Of a stretch of 64,000 nucleotides of DNA, positions 15,653-63,437 are shown one piece after another (position 1 is the stretch's first letter; the number at the start of each line of letters is the position of its first letter). The DNA comes from Bdellovibrionales bacterium (GTDB lineage: Bacteria > Bdellovibrionota > Bdellovibrionia > Bdellovibrionales > JAKFYE01), in assembly GCA_021731045.1 (NCBI GenBank), contig JAKFYE010000003.1, forward strand, positions 1 to 64,000, in the 5' to 3' direction. A program made the translations under genes and the position numbers. The notes under the pieces are model-generated. The model was not told the origin of the DNA. It ran no database searches and worked only from the letters and a program-made list of their open reading frames with translations.

Positions 15653-15700
15653 CCACGAATTATCTCAACATTTAAAATTAAATTTTGAGATAATTCGTGG
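15653..15700 (+). promoter_or_regulatory. Perfect 16 bp stem-loop in the pnp leader
   Basis: CCACGAATTATCTCAA (15653-15668) is perfectly complementary to TTGAGATAATTCGTGG (15685-15700), with a 16 base AT-rich loop. It lies 50 bases before the chosen pnp ATG and after the rpsO terminator. In E. coli a leader stem cut by RNase III lets PNPase repress its own mRNA; this could be the equivalent. Confidence 0.7.
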
Positions 15701-23188: not shown

Positions 23189-23253
23189 CTACCTTTGCGC
23201 TCGTAGCATTTCCAGCTTCAACTTAAATTGACAACTCCATTCGCATGTCAGAC

Positions 23254-23316
23254 AAATAGGTGCCTACCACCTTTTGTGGATGCGACGCATCCACAAAAGG
23301 TGGTAGGCACCTATTT
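23254..23316. repeat. 63 nt perfect palindrome upstream of mutL
   Basis: Arms 23254-23284 and 23286-23316 are perfectly complementary over 31 bases around a single central A. A possible promoter element TTGACA (23228-23233) lies just before it. The mutL ATG is 24 bases after it. Confidence 0.9.
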
Positions 23317-23339
23317 GGGAGCTCAGATTGGGAAGTCGC

Positions 23340-34322: not shown

Positions 34323-34360
34323 GCCATTGAAGGGCTCTCGTCTTGGGCTTTCAATAACAT

Positions 34361-34398
34361 AAATAAAAAAGCCTCTTAACCAAGAGGCTTTTTTATTT
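34361..34398. terminator. Strong symmetric terminator
   Basis: AAATAAAAAAGCCTCTT (34361-34377) and AAGAGGCTTTTTTATTT (34382-34398) form a perfect 17 bp stem with loop AACC and T-runs on both strands. Confidence 0.93.
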
Positions 34399-34614
34399 AG
34401 AGTCTCATCAATAGAATTTTGATTTGCCGGACAAAGCCTAGTATCTTAAATCCCACACTGGCTTGTTTGGGGACGGACCACATTTAGAATTCACATGCTT
34501 AACGTGTCAAGTCATTGGTCGAATGTATAAGTAATATCAAATACTTACATTGATTTTTCTATTGCTAATTTTTAAGGGTTTTGATAGAATTATCTTAATT
34601 GCTTGGAGGTGGAT

Positions 34615-45581: not shown

Positions 45582-45755
45582 ATGGCATTAGATAAAGATC
45601 TTAAATTGCTAAAATATGATGTACGCATTCAAGAGTGGAGCGTTCGCAACGGTCAATTAAAGCAATCTGAAATCGATTCGCACCTTAAAGAATTACCTGA
45701 CGTTGCAAACAATGCTGTGTCTCTTAATCTCGAAGATAAAAACGAAACTCACTAA
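45582..45755 (+). CDS. Small conserved-looking 57 aa protein
   Basis: A short ORF with a strong AGGAG 6 bases before the ATG. It reads MALDKDLKLLKYDVRIQEWS, then a helical, highly charged middle and an acidic end (NLEDKNETH). No signal peptide, membrane helix or cysteine. Codon use matches its neighbours. It is probably translated from the sppA-rhomboid transcript. No function is recognised. Confidence 0.72.
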   Translation: MALDKDLKLLKYDVRIQEWSVRNGQLKQSEIDSHLKELPDVANNAVSLNLEDKNETH

Positions 45756-46148
45756 GCTCTAAAGACCGCGCGTGCGCTAACTCCATGTTTTAGCGCATCG
45801 CTTTGATTCTGAGTCTTCCAACAAAAAACTAAACTCATTTATCTCCATTGAAACCTGGCTTGCGGTAAGGGTTCGACATTCCTTTTCGAATATCTCTTCT
45901 TCTTGTAATTGCTTTCGGCCGCAGGTTGTCTTCGGATTGCATTACTTGATCGAAAGCAATTAAGAGAAAGCTTGCCAGGCTTGCATAACGCAACCCGGAT
46001 ACACCCGTGCACGACGCAAACTACAAGAAGAAGAGATATTCGAAAAGGAATGTCGAACCCTAGCTCAATTTTAAGTATTTCAATGGAGATAAATGAGTTT
46101 AGTTTTTTTGTGTGCGCTCAATGTGAGTCATCGGAATAGTACGTAAGT
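45756..46148. other. Gap between convergent genes, filled by a palindromic element
   Basis: The 393 base gap between the 57 aa gene and the L,D-transpeptidase gene is largely one inverted-repeat element (45823-46108). No real gene was found. Confidence 0.7.
45823..46108. repeat. Long branched inverted-repeat element 1
   Basis: Outer arms 45823-45853 and 46078-46108 are perfectly complementary (31/31). After an internal loop (14 and 16 bases) inner arms 45868-45907 and 46022-46061 are perfectly complementary (40/40). The core (45908-46021) has a 10 bp hairpin ATTGCTTTCG/CGAAAGCAAT (45908-45917 with 45951-45960) and TTGC-GCAA near 45981-45993. CCTGGC in the left internal loop (45854-45859) can pair with GCCAGG in the core (45974-45979), a possible pseudoknot. 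Same plan as 62688-62941. Confidence 0.92.
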
Positions 46149-47141
46149 TTAATTTGCAGCGGCAGAAGCGCGTGTTGTTTGGAGAGTGGCTTGGAGGCCT
46201 TCTGCATTTTCTACGGCGGCCCACTCTTCGCCTACGATTTTGAATTGATTGTCGGCTTTTTCAACTAAGTACAAAATTTTCTCGCCGAAGTCTGTGTGTT
46301 GGTCAGAGTTGTAGCCTTGAAGGGCGCGAATCACGACTTTTCCTTTTGAACGATAAATAACCGGCTCAGAAAAATGAACCGCAATCTTTTGGTATTTCTG
46401 ATTGAGGTTATCTTTATATGCGCGCCATTTGTTTTTAGTCATTCCTAAGGATTTAAAACCTTCATCGTAGTACTCGATGTATTTATCTAAATTTTTTGAT
46501 TCCCAAGCTACGCGCCAGTCTTCAAAAATTTTATGAAGGGCTTGGCTGGTCGTTTTGGATGTTTCTTCAGGAACCATGGCCATGCTGTCCAATATAATAA
46601 TAGGTGTAGCTCCTAATTTAATGTACTGGCTAATATCTGCGATCGCGTCATTACGCAAAACCACACATCCGCGAGAACCTCTTTGTAATGAAACTGTGTC
46701 GGGTACGGCGTGGAGCCAAATGCCGTTTCCGGTTTTGCCTTCCATCTGGTCAAAAAGATTTGGATAGTTGGTCGTAAAGGCTTTTTTTCCGTACTGAGAA
46801 AAATCAAGATTAGAGCCTTCCATCATGTTCATTAAAAAATAAATACCTTCAGGCGTTTTGTAATCTCCGCTTGAAACTTTAGGGCCTTCTTTTCGCCCTA
46901 GGTCTGAGGGATACTCAGTAACTTTAGCAATCCCACCTGTCGTTTTGGACCAAACAGTTAAGAGCCGTTTAGATTTGTCTACAATAAGGGCCGTTTTAGA
47001 AAAATACTGACCGTCGCCAAGCTGCACTAATGCAGCGGGGAGTTCTCCAGCTTGTGCAAAAGAAAAGACAGAGGAAGGGGCCATCGCGACTAGGCTTAAT
47101 AAAAAAAGATGTCTCGTTTTGAGATATTTATTATGGAACAT
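46149..47141 (-). CDS. L,D-transpeptidase (YkuD) with C-terminal NTF2-like domain
   Basis: Periplasmic peptidoglycan cross-linking or protein-anchoring enzyme. From ATG 47141 (330 aa, GAGAG upstream) there is a signal peptide ending near FSFAQA. The YkuD domain (about 45-190) has H144 in IWLHA and the catalytic cysteine C159 in SRGCVVLRN. The C-terminal part (about 200-320, KIFEDWRVAWESKNLDKYIEYY) looks like an NTF2/SnoaL-type domain, a combination known among L,D-transpeptidases. GTG 47150 is an alternative start. Confidence 0.9.
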   Translation of the reverse strand: MFHNKYLKTRHLFLLSLVAMAPSSVFSFAQAGELPAALVQLGDGQYFSKTALIVDKSKRLLTVWSKTTGGIAKVTEYPSDLGRKEGPKVSSGDYKTPEGIYFLMNMMEGSNLDFSQYGKKAFTTNYPNLFDQMEGKTGNGIWLHAVPDTVSLQRGSRGCVVLRNDAIADISQYIKLGATPIIILDSMAMVPEETSKTTSQALHKIFEDWRVAWESKNLDKYIEYYDEGFKSLGMTKNKWRAYKDNLNQKYQKIAVHFSEPVIYRSKGKVVIRALQGYNSDQHTDFGEKILYLVEKADNQFKIVGEEWAAVENAEGLQATLQTTRASAAAN

Positions 47142-61494: not shown

Positions 61495-62693
61495 AGCTCC
61501 ATCGTCATCTCGTTCTTGAAGTTATATCGATTCTTAAAGCTATTTTTAGTGATGGCGTTTATTCAGATAAAGCCATCGAGGCGGCACTCAAATCACATCC
61601 TAAATGGGGAGCCCGCGATCGTCACTTTGTGGCCGAAACTGTTTACGAATCGGTGCGATGGTGGCGACGTATTTGGTCGTGCCTGGGCATTAAAGCCAAT
61701 ACGAAATCAGAGTCTTTATTTTTATTTATCGCCGCTCTTTGGGTTGTAGAAGATAAAGACATTCCAGATTGGCCAGAACTCAAAAATCTAGATGTTCAAT
61801 CTATCAAAACGCGATGGCAACAAATGGACAAATCTTCGGCTGATTATCATGCTGTACCCACGTGGTTGCATGAACTGGGGCAGCAAGAGTTAGGCTCACA
61901 ATGGATCGCGGCGATTGAAGGTTTAAACCGCAAGGCAGATGTGGTTTTAAGAGCAAATACGCTCAAGACAATTCCTAAAGCGTTAGTTGACACTTTAAAA
62001 ACCGAACTCATCGAAAGCGAAACGCTCGAAAATTATGCCGAAGCTGTGCGCCTTTTAAAACGCGCCAACGTATTTCGTACAAATGCATTCAAAGATGGGC
62101 TCTTCGAAGTTCAAGATGCGGCTTCGCAAAAAGTGGTCGCAATGTTAGAGCCCCAAATGGGCGAGCGAGTGATTGACGCGTGCGCCGGAGCCGGGGGAAA
62201 GTCCTTACATTTAGCGGCTCGTATGAAAAATAAGGGCAAAGTCATTTCGCTCGATATTCATGAACACAAACTTGAAGAATTAAAAAGGCGCGCCCGTCGT
62301 AACAGCATTGATATTATCGAAACCCGTGTCATTGATACAAATAAAACGATCAAACGTTTGGAACAAACAGCCGATGCCGTACTTTTAGACGTACCTTGTA
62401 CTGGCTTAGGCGCTCTACGACGAAATCCTGATACTAAGTGGAAGCTTCGTCCAGAAAATTTAACTACGCTTTTAGAAACTCAAAAACAAATTCTGCAAGA
62501 CTATTCTAAAATGGTAAAGCCAAACGGAAGAATGGTGTACGCGACTTGCAGCATTTTACCTTCTGAAAACGAAAAACAAGTACAAAACTTTATTAAGACA
62601 AATCCAAATTGGACACTCACCCAAGAGCACCGCGAATGGCCACACATTAATGGATTCGACGGCTTCTATATGGCGCTGCTCAAAAATAATTAA
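61491..62693 (+). CDS. RsmB/NOP-family 16S rRNA m5C methyltransferase
   Basis: SAM-dependent RNA m5C methyltransferase. The 400 aa protein has a NusB-like helical N-terminal domain (about 1-130), the SAM site DACAGAGGKSLHLAA (229-243), and the two catalytic cysteines C303 in DVPCTGLGALRRNPD and C353 in ATCSILPSENE. The start is TTG 61491, overlapping the previous gene; AGGAG is farther away than usual. The stop codon lies inside the outer arm of the palindromic element. Confidence 0.9.
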   Translation: MKLHRHLVLEVISILKAIFSDGVYSDKAIEAALKSHPKWGARDRHFVAETVYESVRWWRRIWSCLGIKANTKSESLFLFIAALWVVEDKDIPDWPELKNLDVQSIKTRWQQMDKSSADYHAVPTWLHELGQQELGSQWIAAIEGLNRKADVVLRANTLKTIPKALVDTLKTELIESETLENYAEAVRLLKRANVFRTNAFKDGLFEVQDAASQKVVAMLEPQMGERVIDACAGAGGKSLHLAARMKNKGKVISLDIHEHKLEELKRRARRNSIDIIETRVIDTNKTIKRLEQTADAVLLDVPCTGLGALRRNPDTKWKLRPENLTTLLETQKQILQDYSKMVKPNGRMVYATCSILPSENEKQVQNFIKTNPNWTLTQEHREWPHINGFDGFYMALLKNN

Positions 62694-62941
62694 TTTCTAA
62701 TTTTCTGACTTCATTGAGATCAACTCTATGAATGAAGAGCTCTCTTTTTTCTTTCTATGTTCGTAAATCAGGGCGCCCCTCCGTGGGCGCATGAGCGCGC
62801 TCTCGCGGCCATCGTGGCCGCGAGTGGACTATGCGTCCACCGCGCGCTCAATCCTGATTTACGAACATAGAAAGAAAAAAGAGAGCTCTTCATGTCTACT
62901 TTAGAAACATCTCAATGAAGTCAGAAAATTAGAACTTAATT
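62688..62941. repeat. Long branched inverted-repeat element 2
   Basis: Outer arms 62688-62720 and 62909-62941 match 32 of 33 pairs and cover both convergent stop codons. After an internal loop (11 and 15 bases), inner arms 62732-62772 and 62853-62893 are perfectly complementary (41/41). The core (62773-62852) folds as a cloverleaf: GCGCCC/GGGCGC (62773-62790), then TGAGCGCGC/GCGCGCTCA (62792-62800 with 62842-62850) enclosing CTCGCGGCCA/TGGCCGCGAG (62802-62824) and TGGAC/GTCCA (62825-62839). Same plan as 45823-46108. Confidence 0.93.
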
Positions 62942-63437
62942 ACTTTTGAATGACAGGTGGGGATTGGGAGTCAGATGGGGCCGTGTCGGAGTGTAGAAGC
63001 GATTTGATTTTAGGTGTGCGAAGGGTGATGTTGGGCATTGTGAGGAGGTTGCATAAGAGGGCACCGAATCCATAGAGGTAAAACCTAGAAGAGTCTTTTA
63101 GGATGAAGCCGTAATAAAAGCCGATCATGATAAAAATTTCGTTTGTAAAAAGAAAGAGGGCGTACAGGGCAGAGAGCTGGCCCAATTGGCCTAATGTCGG
63201 ATTTTGAAGTCCTAAGACGACTTTTTTAATCTTTATTTGTAACCAAAATGAGAGTGCCAGGCTGGCGCCGATGAGTACATTAATAATGGTGTCGGCCGTC
63301 GAAGTAATAACAAGTTTTTGATCTTGCCATTCTTCGGATAGAGAAGCGCCAACGAGTAGTAGCATAATGACCGACGATGTGAAACCGATCCATATAAACC
63401 AGTTTGTGCGATTAAAGTAAGACTGATCTGTATCCAT
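62940..63437 (-). CDS. Four-helix membrane protein of unknown function
   Basis: A 165 aa protein from ATG 63437 with four hydrophobic segments: WFIWIGFTSSVIMLLLVGASL, IINVLIGASLALSFWL, LSALYALFLFTNEIFIMIGFYYG and FYLYGFGALLCNLL. A polar C-terminal tail (SLLHSDTAPSDSQSPP) follows. No family recognised. ATG 63467 would overlap the desaturase gene by 20 bases and is less likely. It follows the desaturase by about 10 bases, probably in one transcript. Confidence 0.62.
   Translation of the reverse strand: MDTDQSYFNRTNWFIWIGFTSSVIMLLLVGASLSEEWQDQKLVITSTADTIINVLIGASLALSFWLQIKIKKVVLGLQNPTLGQLGQLSALYALFLFTNEIFIMIGFYYGFILKDSSRFYLYGFGALLCNLLTMPNITLRTPKIKSLLHSDTAPSDSQSPPVIQK

Follow-up and report, generated by a model that had tools for sequence, protein, structure and literature searches.

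The stretch from 45823 to 46108 of the window (the whole stretch of DNA analysed, 64,000 nucleotides of a Bdellovibrionales genome) is a palindrome of 286 bases with perfectly matched arms. SbcCD, of which SbcD is a part, is the nuclease that normally destroys long palindromes. The locus raises two questions: what kind of element this is, and how its arms come to be perfect. The window belongs to a metagenome-assembled genome, called G000 here (2.58 Mb in 47 contigs, 83.5% complete).

Anatomy of the palindrome at 45823-46108

The stem plan proposed for this palindrome (element 1) in the initial annotation, an outer stem of 31 nt and an inner stem of 40 nt, both perfect, is exact to the base. 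The position between convergent genes is likewise correct: the neighbours are a small ORF with its end at 45755 and, with its end at 46149, an L,D-transpeptidase-like gene, so named from a reading of its sequence without a profile match. The parts of the element are the following.

45823-45853, unstranded: left outer arm, 31 nt, perfect (100%); inverted copy at 46078-46108
45854-45867, unstranded: left side of an asymmetric internal loop, variable among copies; holds CCTGGC, the proposed pseudoknot partner
45868-45907, unstranded: left inner arm, 40 nt, perfect; contains the stem motif AATATCTC from 45889
45911-45938, + strand: left segment of the conserved core, GCTTTCGGCCGCAGG..GTCTTCGGATT, near-invariant across 11 copies
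45951-45968, + strand: partner of an alternative apical hairpin, CGAAAGCAATT.., 18 nt, 89% complementary to 45900-45917
45989-46017, + strand: right segment of the conserved core, CGCAACCCGGATACACCC..GCACGACGC, pairing imperfectly with the left segment
46022-46061, unstranded: right inner arm, pairing with 45868-45907
46062-46077, unstranded: right side of the asymmetric internal loop, facing 45854-45867
46078-46108, unstranded: right outer arm, with a T-run at its end, unlike most copies

Extended to 43 nt, the inner arms still match at 98%. The predicted RNA fold of element 1 has -145 kcal/mol and is far more stable than that of shuffled sequences (z = -19.4; 0 of 200 shuffles equal). The branched core described before is a possible fold, but just one of two alternatives. 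The fold that copies of the same family (family A, see below) have in common in other genera is an end-to-end mismatched hairpin, and the pairing of left and right core segments runs through conserved mismatches and G-U pairs; the left segment is recognisable in those other genera, and the alternative apical hairpin was found in family A copies of G000. A conserved pseudoknot between CCTGGC and GCCAGG was rejected: the complementarity suggested earlier exists in element 1, but the pairing is lost in sister copies, for example those at C4:71484 and C9:88735 (contig and position in G000). Compared with Rfam, element 1 and family A gave no match at the gathering score, and matches to SSRC8_2 and miRNA-type models look like hairpin-shape noise.

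Sequence families and their distribution

The initial annotation named the absence of other copies genome-wide as a refutation; many further copies were found in G000 and in relatives, which removes that objection. A search with element 1 recovered about 11 copies in G000 (family A) with a common core at positions 62-223 of the 286, and one of them, C4:71484-71772, resembles element 1 over its full length at 87%. The second palindrome reported for the window, at 62688-62941, is real and belongs to another family, family B, with about 13 copies in G000 and a core at positions 69-182 of this element 2.

62680-62949 (62688-62941 in the initial annotation), unstranded: element 2, family B copy between convergent coding sequences
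62732-62772, unstranded: left inner arm, 41 nt, 100%; partner at 62853-62893
62773-62852, + strand: conserved branched core of family B, three hairpins, strong covariation over 12 copies

The outer arms of element 2 are perfect over 26 nt, and its fold has z = -25.6 against shuffles. In the 12 copies 96.8% of the family B structure is paired and 26 of 50 pairs are changed on both sides (0 of 500 shuffles equal); in helix 1, the outer helix, both-sided changes occur in 15 of 21 pairs and the single one-sided cell is a G-U. A third core characterises family D (C3:22286, C1:138261), but the stem motif, here AATATCTyC, lies just outside it. Within G000 the motif AATATCTC is common to families A, B and D. 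Outside the cores the arm sequence varies from copy to copy, while the two arms of each copy are nearly perfectly matched; the elements measure about 100-340 bp across families. The earlier description of elements 1 and 2 as a class defined by shape, with unrelated sequence, thus holds for the arms and for the assignment to different sequence families, yet every family has its own conserved core sequence, and AATATnTC is common to A, B and D.

A covariance model of the family A core matched 10 other genomes among 141 of the order, from several families and genera and with multiple copies in most; G047 has about 30. The family B model gave weak relatives in family f8, which we take to be the Bdellovibrio-type family. 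From four of these relatives a model named B' was built and searched in f8 only, where it scored in 29 of 66 genomes with up to 32 copies per genome. All 20 B' loci inspected have a related branched core, and nearly all have long, near-perfect, locus-specific arms. Next to one B' element (L113:1245-1318) there is a candidate c-di-GMP-I-GGC riboswitch of 53.9 bits (gathering score 59).

The most similar described RNA is TwoAYGGAY (Rfam RF01731; Weinberg 2010, PMC2864571), in which a long outer stem also encloses hairpins. With a gathering score of 43, one B copy (L045) reached 46.6 bits, whereas the other B copies stay below, among them the window copy (36.1) and L040 (42.3); none of the 20 B' loci and no family A copy matched. 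Long perfect inverted repeats also occur inside coding sequence in Nematomorpha mitochondria, but these are mitochondrial and intragenic, and the abstract describes no conserved core family (PMC6649704). Phage or plasmid origin was rejected, as no match was found in phages, plasmids and viral contigs (the last by exact pattern search). Among open-access papers nothing specific on palindromic repeats of Bdellovibrio was found, and in Bdellovibrionales the elements look like a hairpin repeat class that is widespread and so far undescribed.

That the palindromes arise from chimeric inverted joins in assembly, a doubt raised earlier and fed by the window genome being a metagenome assembly in 47 contigs, can practically be dismissed. 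Dozens of independent genomes, some of them single-contig assemblies such as G031 (3,782,950 bases), have the same architecture, and the arms differ from locus to locus; this refutes the artefact for the class. Of the two options offered for perfect arms, recent or maintained, the second applies; the palindrome is far beyond chance and its arms are maintained. As a family, an order-wide class of palindromic repeats at gene ends, with conserved core and self-homogenised arms, is well supported by the sequence comparisons.

Position at gene ends

By crude ORF-based gene calls, 18 of 25 A and B copies in G000 lie between convergent genes, while convergent gaps make up 79 of 462 (17%) in a palindrome census covering 482 kb of sampled G000 stretches. 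In G047 most copies start about 20 bp or less after the upstream stop codon and the next start is usually more than 100 bp away. In co-directional gaps, 22 family A copies are in sense orientation relative to the upstream gene and 5 in antisense (six genomes pooled, related copies included); the eight co-directional B' copies have no orientation bias (5 antisense, 3 sense).

This position suggests bidirectional intrinsic terminators of convergent genes, lengthened by template switching. The enrichment between convergent genes, the start right after stop codons and the A6/T6 at the arm ends of element 1 and its C4 sister would all fit. The T-runs of these two are, however, not typical. TTTT follows the right arm in 9 of 67 copies against a background of 14%, so there is no T-run enrichment at arm ends, and for this reason we do not call the elements intrinsic terminators; the combination of GC-rich stem and U-tract is not characteristic of the families, although element 1 itself has a T-run. 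In addition, a terminator has no need of a conserved core sequence, and few of the convergent gaps in the sample carry a long palindrome, most being without a long hairpin. Ordinary U-tract intrinsic terminators are unlikely on these grounds, and so, in our judgement, is the lengthened bidirectional form. The copies may instead be mRNA 3'-end hairpins that spread non-autonomously.

Mirror-image arms and the probable spread of copies

The changes in the arms bear on how they stay matched. In the inner arms of G047 copies, both-sided changes number 84 and unpaired cells 14; of the gap cells, 22 are symmetric and 9 one-sided. (The spectrum of base changes in these arms was set aside, since its A/T flips are probably the product of indels within A/T runs.) The pairs L230/L236 and L246/L249 are examples of orthologous f8 copies, matched by their flanks in single-contig genomes, that differ by mirrored multi-base substitution clusters and by symmetric indels. 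Summed over the ortholog arms, mirrored Watson-Crick changes number 43 and one-sided changes 107, the latter count being raised by outer regions that pair loosely.

Host sequence also forms part of some arms. Of 19 G000 copies, 12 have arms that overlap a flanking coding sequence by 6-30 nt; the outer arms of element 2 overlap the 3' ends of the convergent coding sequences on either side by 14 and 10 nt. At such coding ends two histories would give the same picture: copying of gene sequence into the arm, or a gene that has come to terminate within the element. In one family D copy the last 8 nt of a tRNA-Arg gene lie within one arm and their mirror image in the far arm; since the constraint lies on the tRNA, the simplest reading makes the far arm the copy.

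We considered two ways in which such arms could arise. First, point-by-point compensatory selection on RNA structure could make the arms perfect with no copying from arm to arm. Both-sided changes are found in the core helices too and fixed G-U pairs occur on the + strand of the A core, as this would predict, and strong selection for pairing in both strands might look like conversion. Yet G-U intermediates are almost absent from the inner arms, and the symmetric multi-base indels, the mirrored clusters between orthologues and the arms that mirror coding and tRNA ends are hard to obtain in this way. We regard compensatory selection as the sole cause as improbable. Second, one arm could be copied onto the other by template switching during replication, a known source of such changes at hairpins (PMC8794818, PMC7202029). 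Mirrored multi-base changes and symmetric indels, the signature of a hairpin maintained by template switching, are both present, and together with the mirrored gene and tRNA ends they fit arm-to-arm copying, which is moderately supported as the process shaping the arms. Quasipalindrome correction is likewise known to make and keep perfect stems by copying arm onto arm, but as a process on individual hairpins (PMC8794818, PMC7202029); in the present case it seems to act on an entire dispersed family and to reach into gene and tRNA ends.

The distribution of the copies bears on how they multiply. In G025, a congener of G047, the orthologues of the two genes that flank copy L154 of G047 lie 49 bp apart with no element between them, at a locus otherwise rearranged in G047; orthologous gaps in G025 and G044 are too diverged for base-by-base alignment and were read as presence or absence. 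Copy number and patchy distribution suggest spread. Y1_Tnp occurs in 111 of 141 genomes regardless of element presence, and G002 carries the element without any Y1 transposase; a correlation with Y1 transposases across the order was uninformative. Among the Y1/RAYT-like genes of the genome and the order no cognate transposase was identified. One RAYT-like Y1 transposase gene (229 aa, HUH motif) lies at C26:21696-21917 of G000 on the - strand (L064), with no element adjoining; no RAYT link was found.

Dispersed extragenic palindromes are known as REP, BIME and REPIN sequences with RAYT transposases (PMC2817692, PMC3116915, PMC3733652). Like them, the present elements are dispersed extragenic palindromes able to form ssDNA or RNA hairpins, and roles at transcription ends and in mRNA stability as well as non-autonomous spread have been proposed for both. 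REPs are, however, 20-40 bp long with a conserved tag of GTAG/CGTC type at one end, whereas our elements have about 100-340 bp, a conserved centre, locus-specific arms and variable ends. MITEs keep the terminal inverted repeats of their parent IS; in our elements it is the centre that is conserved, while the termini vary. In most families the outer ends are different at each locus, arm ends are shared among the G047 copies, and a non-exhaustive search identified neither an autonomous parent nor a target duplication. The likeness to MITEs and stem-loop repeat families is that of short dispersed inverted-repeat elements in bacterial genomes (PMC10969869, PMC2267715).

A purely selfish mobile palindrome of MITE or REP type, with no host role, would account for the high copy number in some genomes, the patchy distribution and the presence or absence between congeners, and Y1/RAYT-like transposases do occur in G000. 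The location at gene ends would then result from purging elsewhere or from a transposase targeting terminator-like hairpins. No terminal motif, target duplication or cognate transposase was identified, though, the conserved part is the centre and not the ends, and covariation in the core implies a maintained structure, which could itself be a signal for mobility. We hold this explanation to be possible but doubtful.

The distribution of SbcD bears on how long palindromes could be tolerated in this order. SbcD (TIGR00619) scored above cut-off in 11 genomes, all of family f10, where neither A nor B matched; in most Bdellovibrionales genomes examined it was not detected. The mutual exclusion of SbcD and A or B copies is an association without statistical proof, few genomes carrying the element, but a near-absence of SbcCD would make long palindromes tolerable.

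The explanation we favour, with moderate confidence as a whole, is that element 1 is one copy of a multi-copy palindromic repeat dispersed over the 3' ends of transcription units. Sequence evidence supports the assignment to a family, the distribution across the order, the 3'-end position, the mirrored changes and the host sequence within the arms. Each copy has an apical core conserved in sequence and structure (a mismatched hairpin in A, a branched core in B and B') and long arms almost free in sequence and near-perfect in complementarity. Template switching at the hairpin would make the arms and keep them perfect, one arm being copied onto the other, and the copying could extend outward into the ends of neighbouring genes or tRNAs. 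The copies would spread as a non-autonomous, REP-like element and be retained mainly at transcription-unit ends. In RNA they would fold into highly stable hairpins at the 3' end and stop exonucleases or transcriptional read-through there, not by U-tract termination, and between convergent genes such a block would act in both directions. A variant that we think unlikely is an undescribed, order-wide class of structured 3'-UTR elements whose core, as RNA or ssDNA, recruits a dedicated binding factor and actively drives arm synthesis, each copy writing a perfect, locus-specific stem from flanking host sequence.

On the template-switching reading, the hundreds of related hairpins with mirror-image arms would amount to a many-copy natural experiment on this process, in an order where SbcD is mostly not detected. 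B' copies are present in Bdellovibrio-type genomes, among them probably that of strain HD100, so that both the function and the mechanism of mutation could be tested in a model predator.

Other palindromes were observed in the same genome. The 64-bp near-perfect palindrome at 23253-23317 of the window represents a distinct family of short palindromes (AGGTGCCTACCACCTTTTGTGGATGC), which has no tie to convergent gaps; three or more further copies lie in the sampled stretches (C2:13942, C3:5248, C2:47381). Another short family (AAAGGTACGGACATCCTTTTTGCGAC) is present at C1:13101 (L066), C2:35729 (L076) and C3:6574 (L082), and two palindromes at C1:163163-163273 and C1:164847-164957 (L074) have perfect arms of 49 nt and the core GAAAAAGGGGCCCAGAGATAAACCC. 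Two shorter hairpins lie in the window, one at 15653-15700 (23 nt at 96%) and one at 34360-34399 (18 nt at 100%), the latter of which looks terminator-like.
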